Below, piece by piece: positions 1 through 55,305 of a stretch of 64,000 nt of DNA; within the stretch, counting starts at the first letter, position 1, and the number at the start of each line of letters is the position of its first letter. This stretch comes from Sphagnum magellanicum (Eukaryota; Streptophyta; Sphagnopsida; Sphagnales; Sphagnaceae): positions 17,856,001 through 17,920,000 of the forward strand of contig CM038910.1 in the NCBI GenBank assembly GCA_021904315.1, given 5' to 3'. The notes below the pieces were generated by a model. The model did not search any database, was not told the origin of the DNA, and saw nothing but the letters and a program-made list of their open reading frames with translations. The position numbers and the translations under genes were made by a program.

Positions 1-3000
1 TTTGTTATTTCAATAAAGATGATGTATATGTGAATGAAGACTTTCCAAACAAAATGTTATAAAAAATCATCTTTTATCACATTTGAGATTGGACACATTG
101 GATGTTTTTATGTGCATGTCATTGTGTGGGATTAAAGTTGATAATATCAATTAAAGGACAATCTTTGACATTTGGCATAACAATAAAGGTCATGGAATTG
201 TATCATTGGATCAAAGGTGGACCTTGTGTTTTTTTAATATGATTATAAAATTGTTTTTTGCAAATTTTGTTTAGGCATATGTATGTAAACAATTTTGATT
301 TTGCACATGTTGTGATCCAATAAAGTAATTTGAATTGTCAATCTTTTTTCACCTATAGAACATATTTTAGTTTTTTTCCCCAAGAAGGTGTGTTAACATT
401 AGATGAATACAACAATGGATCTAAACTTGTTTGTAAAAAATGGGATTTGCAATTGAGGTTCCATATATCACAAATTGAACATTTCACAACTTAATAATGA
501 AAATCATGCAAAATTCATTCATTCATAATTTGCATGTTTCACAAACTAATATCATGCGTTGAAAACAAATTTGACACACATATTTATAGAAAGATGTGAA
601 ATTCGTATGGCATTCATTCATTCATAAGTTCTTACTTCATTCGTCAAAACATTTATGTATATGTCAAACATGTTTTCAACATATGATATTCGTGTGTAAA
701 ATGTACAAACCTATGAATGAACAAATTTTGCATAATTTTCATTATCAATTTGTTGCATGCTAAATTTGTGATGTATAAAAAAATATTTTTGTTTAAATTG
801 TGTTTGAACTCAATTTTTAGGGCTTTTCTTTGCAAATCATAGTTTGTTCATTTCATTCATGGATGACATCAATTCATTTGTATGATCATTATGTGAAAAA
901 CATTTTAAAATATAAACTATCAAATGAAATGCATTTTTTGAAATTGCACGTCAAATGAAAGGCAATTAGCCAAAGTTCAATATAATATCATTATGAAAGG
1001 CAATTTTAGAACTTGTTTGTCACAGTGAAAGGCAATGGCCCACGTCAAATTCCTACACCTAACCAATTCACATATGAACAAGGTTTTATTTAAATGATTG
1101 TTTTTTCAAAATGGAAAAAAATAGTGATTTTTGAATTTTTTCATCGGCAAATTTCAAAAGAATTTTTTTTAATTTACAAAATTATAACTTAAATTCCAAA
1201 AAGTATCCAAAAATATTTTTAAATTTTAATTTCTTCTAATTTTCATTTTTTTTATCACCAAATATAACTAAATCATCTTATCAACGATCTCCACTTTAAC
1301 TACATCAAAATTTTGAAAAAAGAAAAACACCACAAGTTTGAAACAAGAATTCACAATTATAATGAATTAATGGCCACTAGCACAACATTAAAATGGATGA
1401 TAAATAGTCAAGAAATTGTTTTGTGTTAAGTTTCATTTCCATAAATAACCATGTTGGTTAAAACAACTTCAATGAAAATAATATATTATTGTTTGAAACA
1501 TTAAATTTTTGATGAATTGTTACATTAAAGTAATTGTATTTTTCTTTAAAAAAATAAATGTGTGCAAATAAACATTGTCTTGCAATAACATGAATAAATA
1601 ACAATAAATGAGTATTTGGATGGGTTAATTATAATAATTGACTCCACTGTTGAAATATCAATAACAATGTCCATCTATTTGTTTGTTTTGGAAATTTTGC
1701 CACTTAGTGACAAAAAAGGGTTGTGAGTCATACAAAAGGGTTTTTTTTATAAAAATGGCACAAAGTTGCCATATTTGGAAGAGAAAAAAGTTGAATTTGT
1801 CAGATTTAGACCATAGCATTTTGGATGCCAACAAAATATAGTGAGGTTCTAAAAAATTATATTTTGCTCTTTGGCTTGTGCCTAAATTTGGTTAAGTCCT
1901 CTTTTAGAGGATCACTAATCCACCTACTTCAAAAAAAATTGTAATGTACAATTTGAGGAGTGGATTTATGTTGAAATAAAAGACTTACACCTTGAAACAA
2001 CAATTGAAGGTGTGTTCCATATTTTTGCATAGCCCCAATCAAAAGGTTTTACACCACATACAAATTGACCATTTGATGCAAAAGATGCAATGTATGCATA
2101 ATGCCAAATGAAGGGGCTTTAAAAGACACATGGTAGATGAGCAAGTCATAGGAGAGAAATGAGTAAATGGTGGCAAATGGACGAGGCCAAGGAAATATGT
2201 GGGCACTATGAAAAGTAGGAAATAAATGAAAAGAAGTAGGAAACTTGGAAAGAAACTTATAGTATGGAAGGATGGGAATTACAAAAAATGTAATCCCTAA
2301 TCAAAAACATAATCTCCTTCCTAAGATGCAAGAGGGTAATTGTGCTTTATAAAGCCCATTTGTTTTAGTGTTAAGAAAATAGGCAAATTTTTTACCCAAA
2401 AAAAATCCTTATCAATAATCTTTTCTTTTTCATATTTGTTGGAAGGTTTTTATGATATTTATGGATGGGGTTGAAGGATATAAACAAGATAAATTGAACA
2501 ATTTGATTGGTTTAAACGTTTTTCTACTTGCAAAGTAAATTTAAACTAGTAGCAAAACTCATCATAAAATTATTTTACATTGAATTTCTAATAAGAATGA
2601 TATAAAAAAACAAGATAGTTCTTCATGACTTTGCATTAGTTTTCAAACTTTGCATCATAAAAATGGGTTGAAAGTAGTTTTGCCAAAATACAAATAGTTT
2701 TTGTAGTGTATTTTTGCAATGTAATTCTTCTGTAAAATACATGTTAAGTAGGATGTAACAAATGAAAAGTAGAAGAGTTTTTTGATGGTCCCATACGAAT
2801 ATAATGATCTTCATATCCTAACTTTATATAATTATATTTTATGAAATATTTTGTGTTATAGGTTCCCAACCATGAATTTATCACCTAATAAATTAAGATA
2901 TTTTTGTTTATTTTTAAATTTTATTTTATCCTAATTTTTTGAAGTAGATTTTTATACACATAACAAAAGAAACCAAGGGTTTATTATCACACTTCCACCC

Positions 3001-6000
3001 ATTTTGATATCATGTTATTGCTTTCATATACAAAATATAGGATAAAAATGAAAATGGATTTACATATTTTTGGTATAATTTACCATGCTTGCACCTTGAA
3101 AGAAAGTTGAAAACTCCATCTTGGATGTGTAGAATACCCAATGATGCTACAAGGTGCTACTAGAGTTGCTTTAGTTTAGTTTAATTGCTTAAAAAAATTT
3201 ACCTAACTATTAATAGCTTGTTCGCAACTTTTTATTACATAGGTAGTAAAAATAATATTTACCCTATGCATTAAGTATGGACATGTGTTGGTGTGATATA
3301 GAGGCTTACACTTAATATTCACATTGATATCAACATTAGTAGCAAGGACCCTACCAATTTAGTATGATTTGAGCCAATACCAACCTTATACCAATATGAG
3401 CTTGGTGGGGACTTGAGATAATATTAACCTTCTATCTATATCATTAGTCCCAATACCAATTATATACCTACTTCATACTAGCAAAAAAACATTCTTGAAC
3501 CTTCTACAAAGGCCAAATTAGAATGAGAATATATATATATTTAAATCTAATAACAATATGAACCTAGTATGAAAAAAGGAAAAACCTACCTAATACTAGG
3601 TGTAGTCCGATATGTTCAAAAGTCAATATGATGATATAAAATCATCTACTTACTTGTTAGTCACATATTTTCTTACATGTACCTTAGCTACCTTGGCAAC
3701 TTTGACATGAATTATATTATTTGTAAAAATGTGAAAATTTCCAAAAAATACCTTTTATTCATAATTTTATGAAGGAAAATAGAAAATTTTAGAAAATATT
3801 TTATATTTTAACATGGAACCTTCAAAATTAATTAATTGTTCAAAATGCATGCTACCTTTATACTCTATAAACTCACTATGTTTTTGGCCTTGTTTCACCC
3901 CTTATCCCCTCTTTTAATGGTATTCGCAAAGTAAGGAAATTTTATTAAATTTTAGTATGAAATTCTGAAATTTAGTATTTTATGCACAAGGTTCAAAAGT
4001 AATTATAGTAGCTCTATGGGTAGGAGAAGTGAAAACATATGTAATAGTAGTGGAGGCATTCAAGGAAAAGGAAAGACATGATACCACCAAAATTGGAGGA
4101 AAAACTAGTTTGGTTCCCAATTATTTTGCTTAGAAATTTTCATTCCTAGTTGCACGTTTGATGGTCTATTATGCCAAAACTTGTTGTTCTTGGCCCTTAA
4201 TTGTGAAACTTTACAAATAACTTTAATATATGCCAAACCCTAATGGTAGTCATGGTATACATGACCATAAAAAGATTCCCCTAGCACACACTCTTTGCTT
4301 GGGACTATGATATTGTGATCACAACATTCAATTGTTTTGAATCTTTTGAATGGAGTAATGGTGAAAACACAATATTAATGTGGGTACGTTGGTTTTATCA
4401 TATTGGTTGAAGGTCATACATTTGAAGGTTAATTTGAATTTGACTAATACACTTTAGATGACAGTTTTTGTGCATGTTTATTGCCATTGGTTGATGACAC
4501 AAACATTGACACCTAATATCCCAAATATTTAAATCCTTTGTGCCTTTACCCCATGTTGAAGTTTTTTCATAAAAACATCTATGGAAAGCAAAAGCTTTGA
4601 CAAAAGCCTTGGGAAAATGCAAATATGTGACCATTTCAATGTTTATGAAAAGGGATGGGATCAATTTTTACAATTGATTCACAAAGTGATGATAAGTTCA
4701 AGGAAAGTGATATCTGCACAATTCCACCTTGCACATTAGAGGTTAAACTCCTAGACTTCGCAAATAAGCATGTAATTGGTTATATGAACTTATGGCAACA
4801 CTACAAAGGAATGTCCTTTTGGCAAATTAGAGTTATTCTTCCAATGTGGAATCATTATTAAATTCGATTGGGACCCTAATTGATAAACAACATTTAATAG
4901 CAACTTGGTCAGATACATGTGGATTGTCTAAAAATGTTTAAGGTTGAACATCCAACAACATAATTCTTTCAAAACATTTGTTTATATTCGATTAGTTTGA
5001 ATGATGTTGTGAAAAAATGCTTTAAGCACATTACAAATTCATTATGTTGCCAAAAAAAAGATAATTTTCTTGAACACATCTATGTGATCTAGTAATGGGT
5101 GATTTCTTTGCAACCCAATATACAAATGTTAATTAAGTAAATAATTGCGTTAGACACCAAGAAATTTACATTGATTCACTTGTCCATTTCCTTTCACTAA
5201 AATGGGCAAAATGTTGAATGACAACAAAAAGATCACACAAAATTTTGCATGTCAACCTTATTCAACCACATAGGAAAGAACATTTCACAAATAGGTAGTC
5301 AAGAAATACATTAATTCAATGAAGCACAAAGAGACCATATGTGGAGCATGTAGTCATGGGATTTCTTATTTCCTGGTATAATTAAAAACTTTGTGCATTA
5401 TGTAACATAGAGTGGTAAACATGCCAAACCAATGGGGTTGGTTTTTCAACATGTATTGTAATGGAATTTTGCAAACTATTCTATAAGAAAAATTGATATG
5501 CATGAACAAGCAATACGATTTGATTAATTGACTCCTTATGTTTTCAAGTTAATACATGGAAGGTATTATTGGAAAAGATGTTTGTATATTCTATAAAGGA
5601 TTGGGATTGATAATTAATTAACACGAAATCATTTTTCTCATGTTTTTTAATATGGGTTTGAATGGAAATTTTGTGCATAAATGATATATGATCCAAATTT
5701 CAAATTGATAAAGTAACTAGATATAGAGACAAATGTAATATGATGTTTTTTTTTACTACTTGGAAAGTATATTTAGGAACAAAAATTGAAAAAATTTCAA
5801 AAAATTATTTATAAGGGAAAATGGCAAGAAGATTTTTAGGGATGGGAACTTGGTATATATATGACCTTTGATAATATGGTGGTTGTTTCCCTAAAAACAT
5901 ATGATTGGTGTTTTCAACTTGTTTCATGGTGGGACTAGTCCACTAACTCTCTCCCATACAAAACTTTCACAATGGAAGGATATTAATATTAATTTCAATA

Positions 6001-8400
6001 CCCTCCCCTTTCAAGAGTGTGGATTTAACAATTTAGTAAGGAATGTCCATCTTTAATTATTATAATAAATTTAAATAATTGATCTTAGTCCATTTCCTTT
6101 TTTTGAATTCCATATGTTCATTTTTTCAAGTTGAAAATTTTGAATTGTGTCTAATGCCAACAATTCAATTATGGGTTTTAAAAAAGAAAAGCCATCAAAC
6201 AATGATGTTTGATTTCATATTAGAGAAGAAGATATGTACCATGAGTAAATCATTTGGTTTAATATACTATTGGCACATGAGAAGTGATGATAGTTCTAAA
6301 ATGAAACATTAAACATGCATATTTAGCTGAAAAGTTGTGAATGCCACATGGGATTTGTTTCTTCCATATAAACACCTTTGAACGTATAAACTTGGTAATG
6401 TAAGCATGTATATTGACATGCAAGTCTACTAAAAAATTGATGCAAAAAAAATAATTCTACAAATAACCTTTACAAATTGGCTTGATTTGTATCATTAATT
6501 TAAATTAAATTATTAGAACCCCATGGCCAAGGGAATGTTTAAAAAAAGATTTATGGAATGTATTTTAATAATTAATTGAATTTTCAAATTTCAATTTTAA
6601 GCTTCATTTTGAAAATGTGGAAAAAATAAAAATAATGGTAAAGGATATGGAAGCTTATACATCTAATAATCATTTTCATAAATATAGATTTAATAATCAT
6701 TATGAAATGTATTCTAATAGTGAAATAAATATTTTAATTTTTAATTTTAAGCTTTAGTTTGAAAGCCCAAAGACTTCAAAAGGTTTTTTTTAATAGTGTG
6801 GATAAACACATGTTTACATTCAGTACTACAAAACCTATCCCAAACCCACTAAAGTACTTCCACCCAAGTTAGCCCAAGTGGAAATGGGCTCATTCAAACC
6901 ATTACCCTATGGTTGTTCAAGTGTACATGGTTCACTTGAATGTGTGCATAATGGATTTTAGTGGATTCATAGTGGATTTTCAATGGAAATTGGTGGACTT
7001 GGTGGATGGGAGTAATGCCTAGAGGAATCATAATGGACACCTTGCCACAAATTCTAGATCACTTATGACTTCCATTAAAAATTCACATGGGTGAAATGGG
7101 GTCTTTCATAATCAATGTTGGGTGGAATGTCAAGTGGAATAGGGACATGTTCTATAATAGTGATTTCATAAGCCAATAAGTATTTTCTAATAATATAATA
7201 GTAAAAAATCCAAGGGCTAGGATTAAATGATCTTATGAATGCCAGATTGTCTTGATTATAATCATGGAAATCATGTGGATGAATGACATAAATGATTATG
7301 ACCATAAAAACAACTATTGGCAAAAGCCTTGAATCCAAATCAACCACATATTCATGTGATCACAAGTGATATAAATGAGTACAAAAGTAATCATATGTGG
7401 AGTCATTTATGCCATGTCTTAACATAGTGATTGGCCACCATCTTGATGTGGCCCTTTCATTTTTGAAAAATATCATACTGTTTGATTCACAAATAAATGT
7501 TTAAGCTCAAATCAATTGATACCTAAATCATTTTAATTTACTTCTCAAAGTTGTGGAAGCCATTTGCTCTTTTTTTTGGTTGTGCATTTCAATCTCCTTT
7601 GAAAGTAAGTCTAGTTCATAAGTTACAACCATTAATTTTTGTTCTTTATCCATTCGTTGAAACATGCAATCTATCAATTTTTTGTTGCTTGTTGTTACTT
7701 GCCATATTCAAGATTGCTATAAATAAATTTCAAAACAAGAATGGAAACTTAGATATTGCAAAAAACATCATTTGTGAACTAAGTTAAATTTTTTAATACA
7801 AATGTGTGAATGTAAAATTTAAAAAAAAGTAAAGATATAATGTCGCTTCTAATGTTTAAATAAGAAACTCATGCACAAAATCACATCTAAAGAATAAAAC
7901 GTCAAGTGAAAAAATGGACATTCTTGAATCAAAAGTGCATGAATAGATGATAAAAAATATATGCAAAAATGGATGCGTTTCTAACTACTCAAGATAGTTT
8001 AACAACTTGCTGAAATATTTTGAATTTGTTTTGAGTTAGGAAGACTCTCAAAAGATATAATCAGTTGAAGTTTAGTCCATACTAACCATCTTGTCAAATA
8101 CGTGTTTGTGTTTGTCAATGAAATAGTCATTCTTGACTCTAGTGATTTAGTTAAGGCCGACCTAGTATCAATGACTTTTCCAACTCAAGAACTAAAAATA
8201 TTGACTCCTAGCCTTTGCACATGATGCAACATACAATGAACATTGGATTGGATTTGAAGGAAACAGCAAAAGATTCATGCAAATCATAATTGAGACCGCA
8301 CTAATGTTTATTGACACAAAGATGCAAACATTATGGAGATCCTTCAACAAAAGTCAGCTGAAGATTGAGATAAGGGTTTCATAAGAGAGATTTCAAATGC
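1..8400. other. AT-rich intergenic spacer, no gene supported
   Basis: This stretch is strongly AT-rich, with many A and T runs. Its open frames are all under about 90 codons, show no recognisable motifs, and lie in composition typical of chance frames. No tRNA-like or rRNA-like segment was seen. It probably consists of old, mutated repeats, but no family could be named. Confidence 0.6.
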
Positions 8401-11042: not shown

Positions 11043-11152
11043 CTGGTTTCCAGTTGTCTTCGAAGAGGGCGGAATGGATTGGTGATTTGTTACTGCATGT
11101 CGAATAGAACTAAAGAAGCTCACAACGTCCGATAGAAGCCCGACACATTGCA

Positions 11153-28152
<17,000 letters not shown>

Positions 28153-31108: not shown

Positions 31109-32425
31109 ATTTTATATATTAAAGCAACAGTGGTGTTTGTTTGTCTGTCCGGGCAGTGTTTGGAAAATTCTTCCAATCACTGTCCGTTCCCTGCGGTGTG
31201 CTTTGTAGAAGGGGGGGGCCCGGGTAAGTTGAGGAATTTTTTGATTTGGGAATTTCGATCTCTGTGACAGTTATTATTCAACTGACAACTGATGGACCTG
31301 GCATGTGAGAGGTTCAGGTTCAGGCATCTAGTGGATGGAGGGTGCGCCGGTGGGTGAATCATTTTGGCCCAGTGTGATTCGATGGAAATCGGTGTTCATG
31401 CATCCAGTGGATGAATGGTGCGCCAGCGGGTGCTGAATCACTTTGGCCCAGTGTGATCCGATGGAAACCATGGGATGAAACTGGGATTTCATGGATGGGG
31501 TGAAACTGCCCCCTAAAGGTCAGTTTACTTGGTCAGTAGTTTTTTTTTTTTTTTTTGAGGCTTTTTCTTATCATGTTTTTTTTTTTTCCTTGCTCTCACT
31601 TTTTTCCTGGGCCTTTTTTTTTTCTCTTTTTTTTTTTCCTTGAAATAACACACTTGTGCATTATGCACAGGGTTCACACTAATTTAATTTAATTTTTTCA
31701 ATCAAATCAGACGCAACCCAATTCAATCACTTAACTCATGTCATGTCTTGATGTTTCATCCATTGAAACTAGTGTGAACCCTGTGCATAATGCACAGGTG
31801 TGTTATTTCAAGAAAAAAAAAAAAGGGGGCCTAGGAAAAAAGTGAGAGCAAAGAAAAAAAAAAAAGCATGATAAAAAAAAGGTTCAAGAAAAAAAAAAAA
31901 AAAAACTACTAACCAAGTAAACTGACCCCTGGGGGCAGTTTCACCCCATCCATGAAATCCCAGTTTCATCCCATGGTTTCCATCGGATCACACTGGGCCA
32001 GAGTGATTCAGCACCCGCCGACACACCATCCATCCACTGGATGCTTGAACACCGATTTCCATCGGATCACACTGGGCCAAAGTGATTCAGCACCTGCCAG
32101 CGCATCATTCATCCACTAGATGCCTGAACACCGGTTTCCATCGAATCACACTGGGCCAAAGTGATTCACCCACCAACGCACCCTCCATCCACACCCTCCA
32201 TCCACTAGATGCCTGAACCTGAACCTCTCACGTGCCAGGTCCATCAGCAGTTAGTTGGGTAATAACTGTCACAGAGATTGAAATTCCCAAATCAAAAAAT
32301 TCCTCAACTTATTCGGCCCCCCCTTTTGCAAAGCAAATCACAGGGAACGGGCAGTGACTGGAAGAATTTTTCAAGCACTGCCCGAATAAACAGACAGACA
32401 CCACTGTTGCTTTAATATATAAAAT
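31109..32425. mobile_element. long foldback (near-palindromic) element, non-coding
   Basis: Two arms, about 31109-31681 and 31770-32425, are reverse complements of each other around a loop of roughly 88 bases. The ends read inward as ATTTTATATATTAAAGC followed by AACAGTGGTGT. The arms keep high identity along most of their length, including the inner GGTTCACACT end. Each arm holds tandem units of about 80 bases (CCCAGTGTGATYCGATGGAAA core): two in the left arm, three in the right, which explains the longer right arm. There is no open frame of note, so it is a non-autonomous long-TIR or foldback transposon. No target-site duplication could be fixed because both ends are AT-rich. Confidence 0.85.
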
Positions 32426-32862: not shown

Positions 32863-32937
32863 TGTCGCGGTGAGATCCCACCGCTCTATTTAGCCAATTC
32901 GTCCCCCTAGGAAGATCGTGACCGTCAAATCTCTCAG

Positions 32938-32946
32938 AAACCCTAA
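32938..32946 (+). promoter_or_regulatory. telo-box AAACCCTAA
   Basis: An exact telo-box lies about 80 bases downstream of the MSA-like element. This is the position where plant promoters often carry it near the transcription start. It marks the likely 5' end of the gene with start codon at 34095. Confidence 0.5.
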
Positions 32947-42837: not shown

Positions 42838-43102
42838 CTATGGAAAAATAGTATCTTCAAAAAAATCCTCTTTAAAAAAAAAGCCAAAATCCTTCAAGAT
42901 ATTATTATAACTCTTATAACTAATCTCAAGTTTCGACACAATCTTCCAAAATATCATCTTCCAAAATTCCTCATAATTAAAAAAAATTGACCTACTATTA
43001 TTATTATTTACCAAGGGGCCAAAATCCCTTGAGCTACTACTATACTCTATAATGAATCTAATAAGCACAATATCCTTCCGTTCATAGGCAAGGCCAACAA
43101 AG
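42838..43102 (-). repeat. copy A of a 300-bp repeat family, inverted
   Basis: This segment is the reverse complement of the repeats at 43372-43688 and 44272-44573. Shared stretches include GGATATTGTG, TTCATTATAGAGTATAGTAG, GAAACTTGAGATTAGTTAT and ATAATATCTTGAAGGATTTT. Together with copy B it forms an inverted pair around a loop of about 270 bases. Confidence 0.8.
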
Positions 43103-43236
43103 TTATTGCATATAATACATATATCTAGACCTTTTGGGTGGCATGTTGTTGTTTTTGTGAGGAGAGTTGACAACATGAAAAGATGTTGTCTCTCGAAGAA
43201 ATATCCCATGTAAACAACACCACATGGGGTTGGGGG

Positions 43237-43278
43237 GCGCGTGTGTGTGCGCACACACATGCCCACACACACACACAA
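43237..43278. repeat. alternating GT/GC/AC tract with Z-DNA potential
   Basis: GCGCGTGTGTGTGCGCACACAC is alternating purine-pyrimidine and nearly self-complementary. It is followed by a further (CA)n tract. It lies in the loop between inverted copies A and B. Confidence 0.7.
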
Positions 43279-43371
43279 TGTGTCATCAAGCATAGATTTT
43301 TCTAGATGTGGCCAAAGTTAACAAAACATTGCATGTGTTAATGTGTGACCTACCAAGGGCAAGAAGGATAT

Positions 43372-43688
43372 TGTGTTTAGATTCATTATAGAGTTATAGT
43401 AGCTTAAGGGATTATTATTATTGTCCCTAGACAATAATAATAGGTCTATTTTTTTTTTAATATGAGGATTTTTTGAATCATGATATTTTTGGCTTGTGTT
43501 GAAACTTGAGATTAGTTATTATATAGAGTTATTATTAATAATATCTTGAAGGATTTTTGGTTTCTTTTAGAGGATTTTTTTGAAGATTATAGTTTTTGCT
43601 ATGGTGAAATATTTGAGTTTCCATAATTCTTCTTTTTGCCTTAAGATACTTTTTAATGTAAATGGCAAGGCCACATTGTGACACACCC
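43372..43688 (+). repeat. copy B of the 300-bp repeat family
   Basis: This copy is direct relative to copy C (44272-44573) and inverted relative to copy A. It runs from GATATTGTGTTTAGATTCATT to TAAATGGCAAGGCCACATTGTG and ACACACCCCTT. No open frame is kept, so it is a non-coding, MITE-like or satellite-like module. Confidence 0.8.
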
Positions 43689-53300: not shown

Positions 53301-55010
53301 AAAAATCACAAGTAGGGCAAGCTAATGTAATAGGGTGAAAAACACAAAAATGTGCTAAATTGAATAATGTTTCACCCAAAGGATCCCCTTGTCGTGTACT
53401 AAACTTGAAAAAAACAACTATGAAATCCCTATGTTGAAAAGCCTACAAGAAATGTAATGGGGATGGGCTTGCATAAAATTGTTAAACAAATGGGGAAAAC
53501 ATATTCAAGGTATCAATAAAAATCATAACTCTTGAAAAATGATTGTTCATGATACAAAATTGAAAGCATTATAAATGTCCATTTGTAATACCACCCAATT
53601 TGGATGCAAATGCAACATAACGTGAACCTCATAGACCACCATTTCACACCCACCTTGTGTTGTCACACTAAATTGGTGAAGATTAAAATGTTTCACAAAT
53701 GTATCCTTCATCTAAATGGCAAATGTGCAAGTGACCAATCGATAGGTCACCTTTCCAATCACAATAGGTCGAATGTTATCAATTTACTTTTACAAAACTA
53801 GTAGTTGTAATACCAAAAGAAAACACAATACAAATGGGGGAACATGACCATAAGCAATGTGCCCACATACCTCAAAAATCAAAGGCACTCACAAAGTCAT
53901 ATGGGATAAAACAATCTTACATAAAAACTCATACACCATACCTAAAGGATCATTAGATGAAAAATGTAGTGAACATGCCAAAACAAAAATAAATGCCTCT
54001 CGATCTAAATCACATTTGTCTTTGGATTGGAATCATTGACAAAGGGGGGAGGTCGACATTTGTTGATAGGTGAAGAAGACAAAAAACTCTCATGGTTTCA
54101 TTGAATTGGACCATTGATATGCTTAAAACTCTTGCACACACCATTCCCGCACACTCTCTTACATATGCAAATGCCCTATGCGTGATGCAATCATGCCAAA
54201 AAAAATGAAGAAGGATCTAAAACCATTTTGAAAAGTCTCCAAGAAACTAAAGCCTCTACTCTAATCATGGAGGAAGTTGAATCTTGGGAATGTCCTCTCT
54301 ATCTTCACTCACATGTGTGGGTTGAAAGACTATATCTGATGACACCAAACAACAAGGGACTTATCCCTTGTGCTTTGTGTGCTAACCCAAGGTGCTAACC
54401 CATGGGTCTCCTTTTATCTCTCCAGCACCTTGGATTCTTCCTCTTCTTTTCTTTATAGTTTGAAGTGAACCAGTGTTGGGTGGTTCTTGATGTTTGGGAA
54501 AAACCTCCCATTTCTGTTTATAAAATTTTAAAAATCAGTTGTGGTTCAACCAAAGAAAAGTAACCTAGAATTTGCTCTGGGTTCAGTTCTCACCTCTCCC
54601 CACCCCCCAAGAAAAAAATGGTTCCAGTCTGGTTCTAAATATCAGACCCAGTTCTAGGTGTCCTGGACCAAAACTGGTAGCTAACTGCTGGTTAGTCCCC
54701 TGTTCTAGTCCTTTTTCTTCAAAAAAAAACTTGATTTTAGTTTCAGTTCAGTTCTGGTTATGAACTTTTAAATAAGCAGCAAAGAACCATCACTTTTATA
54801 AATGGACATTTGACCAGTTTTTTTGAATTTATGAAGCTTGTGATCATATATTAAAATCAGTTCTTCAAATGTTTTAGAACCGTGATCAAATATCAGAACT
54901 GGGTACTTGATTTTTTGAGAACCAGGGTGATATATAATTGAGAATCACCTTAAGAACTTTTGGGTATCCAGATCCATTTCTGATAACCACCCAACACTAG
55001 TTTTTTGCAC

Positions 55011-55305
55011 ATCCAATGGGACATAGTTGTGATGTGAATGTAATGATCTAGCCACTAAAGCCTTCCAAGCTAATCCACATTCTTTTAGCATCATATCCAA
55101 TGGGACATAGTCGTGATGTGAATGTAATGATCTAGCCACTAAAGCCTTCCAAGCTAATCCACATTCTTTTAGCATCATATCCAATGGGACATAGTCATGA
55201 CGTGAATGTAATGATCTAGCCACTAAATCCTTCCAAGCTAGTCCACATTTTTTTAGCATTATATGCAACGGGATATATGCGTGAATGTAATGATCTAGCC
55301 ACTAA
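55011..55305. repeat. 84-bp tandem repeat, about 3.5 copies
   Basis: Units begin at about 55011, 55095 and 55179, with a partial fourth from about 55263. The core reads GTGAATGTAATGATCTAGCC followed by ACTAAAGCCTTCCAAGC. The first two full copies differ at very few bases and the third is more diverged. Because 84 is a multiple of three, the minus strand stays open through the array (28-residue repeats, 54945-55268). That frame is a by-product and is not called a gene. Confidence 0.9.

Follow-up and report, generated by a model that had tools for sequence, protein, structure and literature searches.

Canonical Helitrons are described as having TC and CTRR termini and a palindrome of 16-20 bases lying 10-15 bases from the 3' end, and as inserting between an A and a T (PMC5148889, PMC4778049 and PMC2267711, in the sections available). 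The family scheme of Yang and colleagues is cited in the accessible text of a paper that covers rice elements of the Mothra type (PMC4683698). Two Helitrons lying side by side are known from maize r1, and the authors explain their adjacency by consecutive insertions (PMC2267711). In the moss Physcomitrella, inverted repeats are over-represented in one class of small-RNA loci, and LTR retrotransposons and Helitrons in a second class, of 22-24 nt (PMC2600652). For Sphagnum, a literature search on Sphagnum, Helitron and genome returned no Sphagnum genome paper by title, and the word Helitron is absent from the main text of the Sphagnum divinum genome paper, as far as that text was available (PMC9946827).

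Here we describe a near-palindrome of 1.3 kb in a 64-kb stretch of Sphagnum magellanicum DNA, hereafter the window, which is contig C4, positions 17856001-17920000, of the 438,994,042-base assembly of 31 contigs that was searched throughout. We are highly confident that the near-palindrome is made up of two members of a single family of short non-autonomous Helitrons, whose 3' ends face each other across 86 bp. The pair sits in intergenic DNA, and the gene upstream of it is of the BEACH type.

The inverted repeats span positions 31109-32425 of the window. The left arm is a non-autonomous Helitron of 573 bp on the plus strand (31110-31682), with TT at its 5' end, where most copies have TC, and CTAA at its 3' end. 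The right arm is a second copy of the same Helitron, 656 bp long and on the minus strand (31769-32424), with its 5' TT at 32424 and its 3' CTAG at 31772-31769. Both arms have the ends that are common to the dispersed copies of the family described below. A host A (31109) adjoins the 5' end of the left copy, and the host T at 32425 on the plus strand is likewise an A immediately 5' of the right copy. The spacer of 86 bp between the two 3' ends (31683-31768, no strand assigned) has a single match in the genome, and we read it as host sequence lying outside the element. The 3' terminator of the left copy (31656-31682, plus strand) is made up of the palindrome GTGCATTATGCAC and the CTAA end, with one mismatch to a 28-nt end pattern, and that of the right copy (31769-31795, minus strand) of the palindrome GTGCATTATGCAC and the CTAG end, with none. 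In the right arm the palindrome, CCTGTGCATTATGCACAGG, sits 11 nt before the 3' end, and the left-arm palindrome differs from CCTGTGCATTATGCACAGG by one C-to-T change. Apart from the TT at the two 5' ends, the termini, palindrome position and A/T flanks match the published features, and each arm is a complete non-autonomous Helitron of the canonical kind.

Each arm also carries an internal tandem repeat of 79 bp, present in 1.9 copies on the left (31318-31467, plus strand) and in 2.8 copies on the right (31977-32192, minus strand); the gap in arm length is mainly one extra repeat unit plus 13 bp in the right arm. Arm-to-arm identity is 91.5% (514 of 562 gap-free columns). The preliminary description had given arms of about 570 and 655 bases that pair along nearly their whole length around a loop of 88 bases; the lengths found here (573, 656 and 86 bp) are close to these, and the palindrome is confirmed. 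It had also expected a long hairpin if transcription crossed both arms, and the predicted RNA fold of the plus strand is indeed one long hairpin, at -980.2 kcal/mol, a value that comes with no shuffle control, as for any sequence above 1000 bases. A Rfam search of the window gave no matches. When the left arm was compared with the genome, its best match outside the window had an E value of 9.2e-161 and the matches lay at dispersed places, so the palindrome is far beyond chance.

The pair lies downstream of a BEACH/neurobeachin-type gene that is recognised from Pfam matches on the plus strand and extends over several open frames (14041-27614). A DUF4704 match falls in the frame at 14041-15861 and an NBCH_WD40 match in the frame at 26352-27614, while the two others of the four upstream frames tested (11114-13984 and 18303-19568) had no Pfam match, nor had three frames downstream of the pair. 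Where the preliminary description had put a gene promoter, about 400 bases downstream of the pair, the sequence shows two putative promoter motifs, a CTATTTAG box (32886-32893) and AAACCCTAA (32938-32946). Two further repeats occur in the window. A tandem repeat of 84 bp (55011-55305, 3.6 copies), whose single genome match is itself, is open as a 28-aa repeat within a minus-strand frame of 118 aa (54945-55301) that had no Pfam match over the cut-off. A weaker inverted repeat (42846-43597) has arms of 62 bp that are 74% complementary and lie 628 bp apart.

The copy search used the first 405 bases as query, with E values up to 0.001 and the best 40 of 490 candidates scored. It gave at least 46 matches, of which three were in the window, five shared a locus with another match and 38 marked further places. 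All 38 places outside the window were examined, over 4.5-5.5 kb each, and this sample is biased toward the closest relatives of the left arm. Dispersed single copies with Helitron ends were found elsewhere in the genome. On this point the preliminary description is supported: the sequence derives from a transposon, and further copies with the same ends, for which it had suggested a search, exist. A second full arm was present at none of the 38 loci within the 4.5-5.5 kb examined at each. At one locus, L020, 88 bases of the 5' end recur on the opposite strand, head to head and 636 bp away, and three others (L023, L025 and L032) have only 40-base internal pieces and no second full arm.

The 5' ends could be read in 36 copies. 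A/TC (the slash marks the edge of the element) was found in 29 of the 34 copies outside the window, in L016 one base aside, and A/TT in both window copies. The 3' ends were sought within 2.5 kb of the 5' end and found in 30 of the 36 copies; outside the window they were located in 28 of 34 copies, with a host T next to the element in 28 of 28 and exact CTRR in 25 of 28, counts that are biased toward the CTA[GA]T form because the search pattern held it, with up to three substitutions. The window copies end in CTAA/T and CTAG/T. In 28 of the 30 copies with both ends there was no flanking direct repeat of three or more bases, the exceptions being 4 bases in L011 and 8 bases within a TAA microsatellite in L012. 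The single element has no terminal inverted repeats when its 5' end is set against its reversed 3' end (one match in 12). Allowing up to two mismatches, the 20-base 3' end occurs at 1,032 places in the genome (478 forward and 554 reverse), against 0 forward and 2 reverse places for its reversed control. Exact ends are now given for an abundant Helitron family. A Helitron subfamily (L033, L034, L036, L039, L043, L045 and L046) shares approximately the first 190 bp with the window family; its interior is different, and its 3' end takes variant forms such as TGCACCAGGTTCACACTAG.

On sequence grounds, the Rep-helicase loci of this genome are candidate autonomous partners of the window family. The Helitron_like_N profile gave at least 150 genome matches (150 of the 150 scored, these being the best 150 of 576 candidates), and four of the loci were examined (L056, L057, L059 and L060). 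In L059, a frame of 1,508 aa is open (1029-5552, plus strand) and includes Helitron_like_N and PIF1 domains. Within 1.9 kb after this frame there are four Helitron-type 3' ends (5706-7419), as if terminators had been stacked or copies nested. The 3' ends downstream of the Helitron_like_N frames agree with the family's last 30 bases at 26 of 30 positions in L056, at 27 of 30 for each of two of the four ends in L059, and at 25 of 30 in L060, where the end lacks CTRR; one of the two L059 ends compared is followed by G rather than T. Yang and colleagues reportedly place elements in one family when the last 30 bp at their 3' ends are 80% or more identical, and the matches of 25-27 in 30 exceed that figure, with the L060 and L059 departures just named. 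L057 has no frame of 250 aa and a perfect family 3' end downstream, and another perfect one is found in L056, 1.1 kb past the first end of that locus.

The relationship between the two arms was assessed among 23 copies, for identity, tree and substitution counts alike, after leaving out of the 36 the six without a 3' end and the seven of the 190-bp subfamily. The identity of the arms, 0.915, ranks 81 of 253 copy pairs (median 0.907), and 76 of the 210 pairs that do not involve the window arms are at least as similar as the two arms are. High arm identity had been offered as a sign of recent insertion or of arm-to-arm gene conversion; it is the family average, and there is accordingly no sign of recent insertion or of wholesale conversion. 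Each arm has closer relatives on other contigs. Among the copies compared, both arms are nearest to L009, of contig C14 (92.0% and 92.9%), L009 and L010 are closer to the left arm than the right arm is, and L009, L014 and L011 are closer to the right arm than the left arm is. The longest identical run between the arms is 65 columns (rank 44 of 253), and 227 of 253 pairs equal or better their best 100-column window. Conversion from arm to arm over the whole length is thus unsupported by overall identity, by the longest run and by the best 100-column window.

The best tree does join the two arms, weakly (bootstrap 66, SH-aLRT 89.6, not starred; 2 of the 20 inner branches are starred), and the end branch of each arm, 0.054, is close to the all-copy median of 0.048. 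Two states are exclusive to the arms, where the mean is 0.23 per pair, eight other pairs share two and one shares five, and in alignment columns 241-400 the arms are more alike than most pairs (rank 3 of 210). Given the weak grouping, the shared states and these columns, it is possible that both arms came from one source copy or that a small patch was converted. Substitutions relative to the majority were C-to-T or G-to-A in 26 of 33 and 27 of 33 cases in the window arms, and in 15-19 of 39-43 cases in L023, L025 and L032. The C-to-T and G-to-A bias fits methylated, decaying transposons, as expected.

The simplest reading, and the most likely, is that the two copies arrived by two independent insertions. 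We infer both these insertions and the mechanism behind them, which follows published Helitron work: the Rep-helicase proteins of the genome presumably moved each copy in trans, would have copied the element beginning at the 5' TC and finishing at the 3' hairpin with its CTRR end, and would have joined the copied element between the A and T of an AT target. The palindrome itself is then ordinary, two copies of a short rolling-circle transposon that is common in this genome. Several searches bear on this reading. A spacer query (31680-31771) had one genome match, itself, and there was no second full copy of the outer flanks in the same genome, the flanks matching themselves and giving 1 and 4 short partial matches. 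Exact convergent pairs, counted genome-wide over spacings 1-61, 70-100 and 101-161 with ends free of mismatches, numbered 0, 1 (that of the window) and 0. Exact tandem and head-to-head pairs at spacings 1-61 numbered 0 and 0. In the literature, the phrase tail-to-tail in PMC6927752 belongs to the title of a cited work on heat-shock sites and appears nowhere else in that paper.

A single event could also have produced both arms, through an inverted duplication of one Helitron or the insertion of a composite that already held the spacer, and we regard this as unlikely while giving it some weight. The grouping of the arms in the tree and their two exclusive states would agree with it, as would the outer A (31109) and T (32425), which also fit a single insertion of the whole unit between A and T. 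If the 1,032 ends were placed uniformly, moreover, just 0.06 convergent pairs would be expected within 100 bp, a figure that an insertion preference for AT-rich DNA would raise and that has to be read against a window chosen because it shows a palindrome. However, neither the spacer nor an exact tail-to-tail pair 86 bp apart recurs in the genome, and both inner 3' ends adjoin a T. The internal repeat number is unequal in the two arms, and their end branches are so near the median that any duplication would have to date from roughly the time when the family spread.

With two independently inserted Helitrons as the preferred reading of how the palindrome arose, a separate proposal concerns what it does, namely that the locus is a source of hairpin RNA, and that the small RNAs made from it target the nearby gene or the Helitron family. 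We consider this very improbable: a hairpin-siRNA role has a low prior and is possible but unsupported. The predicted fold is in its favour, and there are precedents in Physcomitrella, where small-RNA loci are described with reads that map onto the arms of a single inverted repeat (PMC2600652, in the part available), and in maize Mu killer, where an inverted duplication of a transposon is proposed to make hairpin RNA (PMC3440606, likewise). At CHH sites, C-to-T changes were more frequent in the arms than in the other copies, at 22 of 335 sites compared with 130 of 3,484 (Fisher P 0.018), and we treat this excess as a lead only, since the comparison copies had been chosen for similarity to the left arm, which lowers their divergence. 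By contrast, no excess was seen at CG sites (5 of 52 in the arms, against 79 of 522; P 0.41, with fewer in the arms), and none that was significant at CHG sites (26 of 158, against 205 of 1,617; P 0.17). In P. patens, moreover, inverted repeats make up 6.2% of the genome, and no small-RNA locus of the hairpin class overlapped Helitron-like regions, according to the accessible text (PMC2600652). A bolder version, that the tail-to-tail meeting made a natural hairpin-RNA trigger that silences in trans a Helitron family of about a thousand members, with methylation spilling over toward the gene 400 bases away, seems to us less probable still. If true, such a trans-silencing hairpin would be the Helitron counterpart of Mu killer.

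Least probable of all, and rejected here, is a single transposon of the foldback or long-inverted-repeat (MITE-like) type, flanked by a target-site duplication: the long inverted arms around a short loop do suggest it, but the copies examined elsewhere are single arms (a second full arm in 0 of 38 loci, which also tells against one inserted palindrome as first proposed), the inner ends are Helitron-type 3' ends, the spacer is unique, and the outer flanks have no direct duplication, the target-site duplication for which the preliminary description had suggested a search, nor is one expected of Helitrons, which insert between A and T.

A striking palindrome of 1.3 kb can thus arise without a foldback element, from two copies of a common Helitron that itself lacks inverted repeats, and the two tail-to-tail copies may be compared with three described systems. 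The closest in kind are the Mothra-like elements of rice, canonical (Helitron1-type) non-autonomous plant Helitrons that likewise have a TC 5' end and a CTAG 3' end, a hairpin set back from the 3' end by approximately 11-13 bp, internal tandem repeats and high copy number, and in which no coding sequence is expected (PMC4683698, in the sections available). They belong to another family, with ends and an interior of their own by their description, and the window copies are set apart by lying tail to tail. The adjacent Helitrons of maize r1 are, as here, two elements side by side. Unlike the window pair, which is inverted, of one family and separated by an 86-bp spacer, they lie head to tail and differ in their contents (PMC2267711, as far as accessible). 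Mu killer of maize is alike in being an inverted transposon-derived sequence, in principle a source of hairpin RNA; it consists of part of a transposase gene, whereas the window arms are elements of 573 or 656 bp, and its genetic evidence of silencing sets it apart from the window pair (PMC3440606, in the part available).
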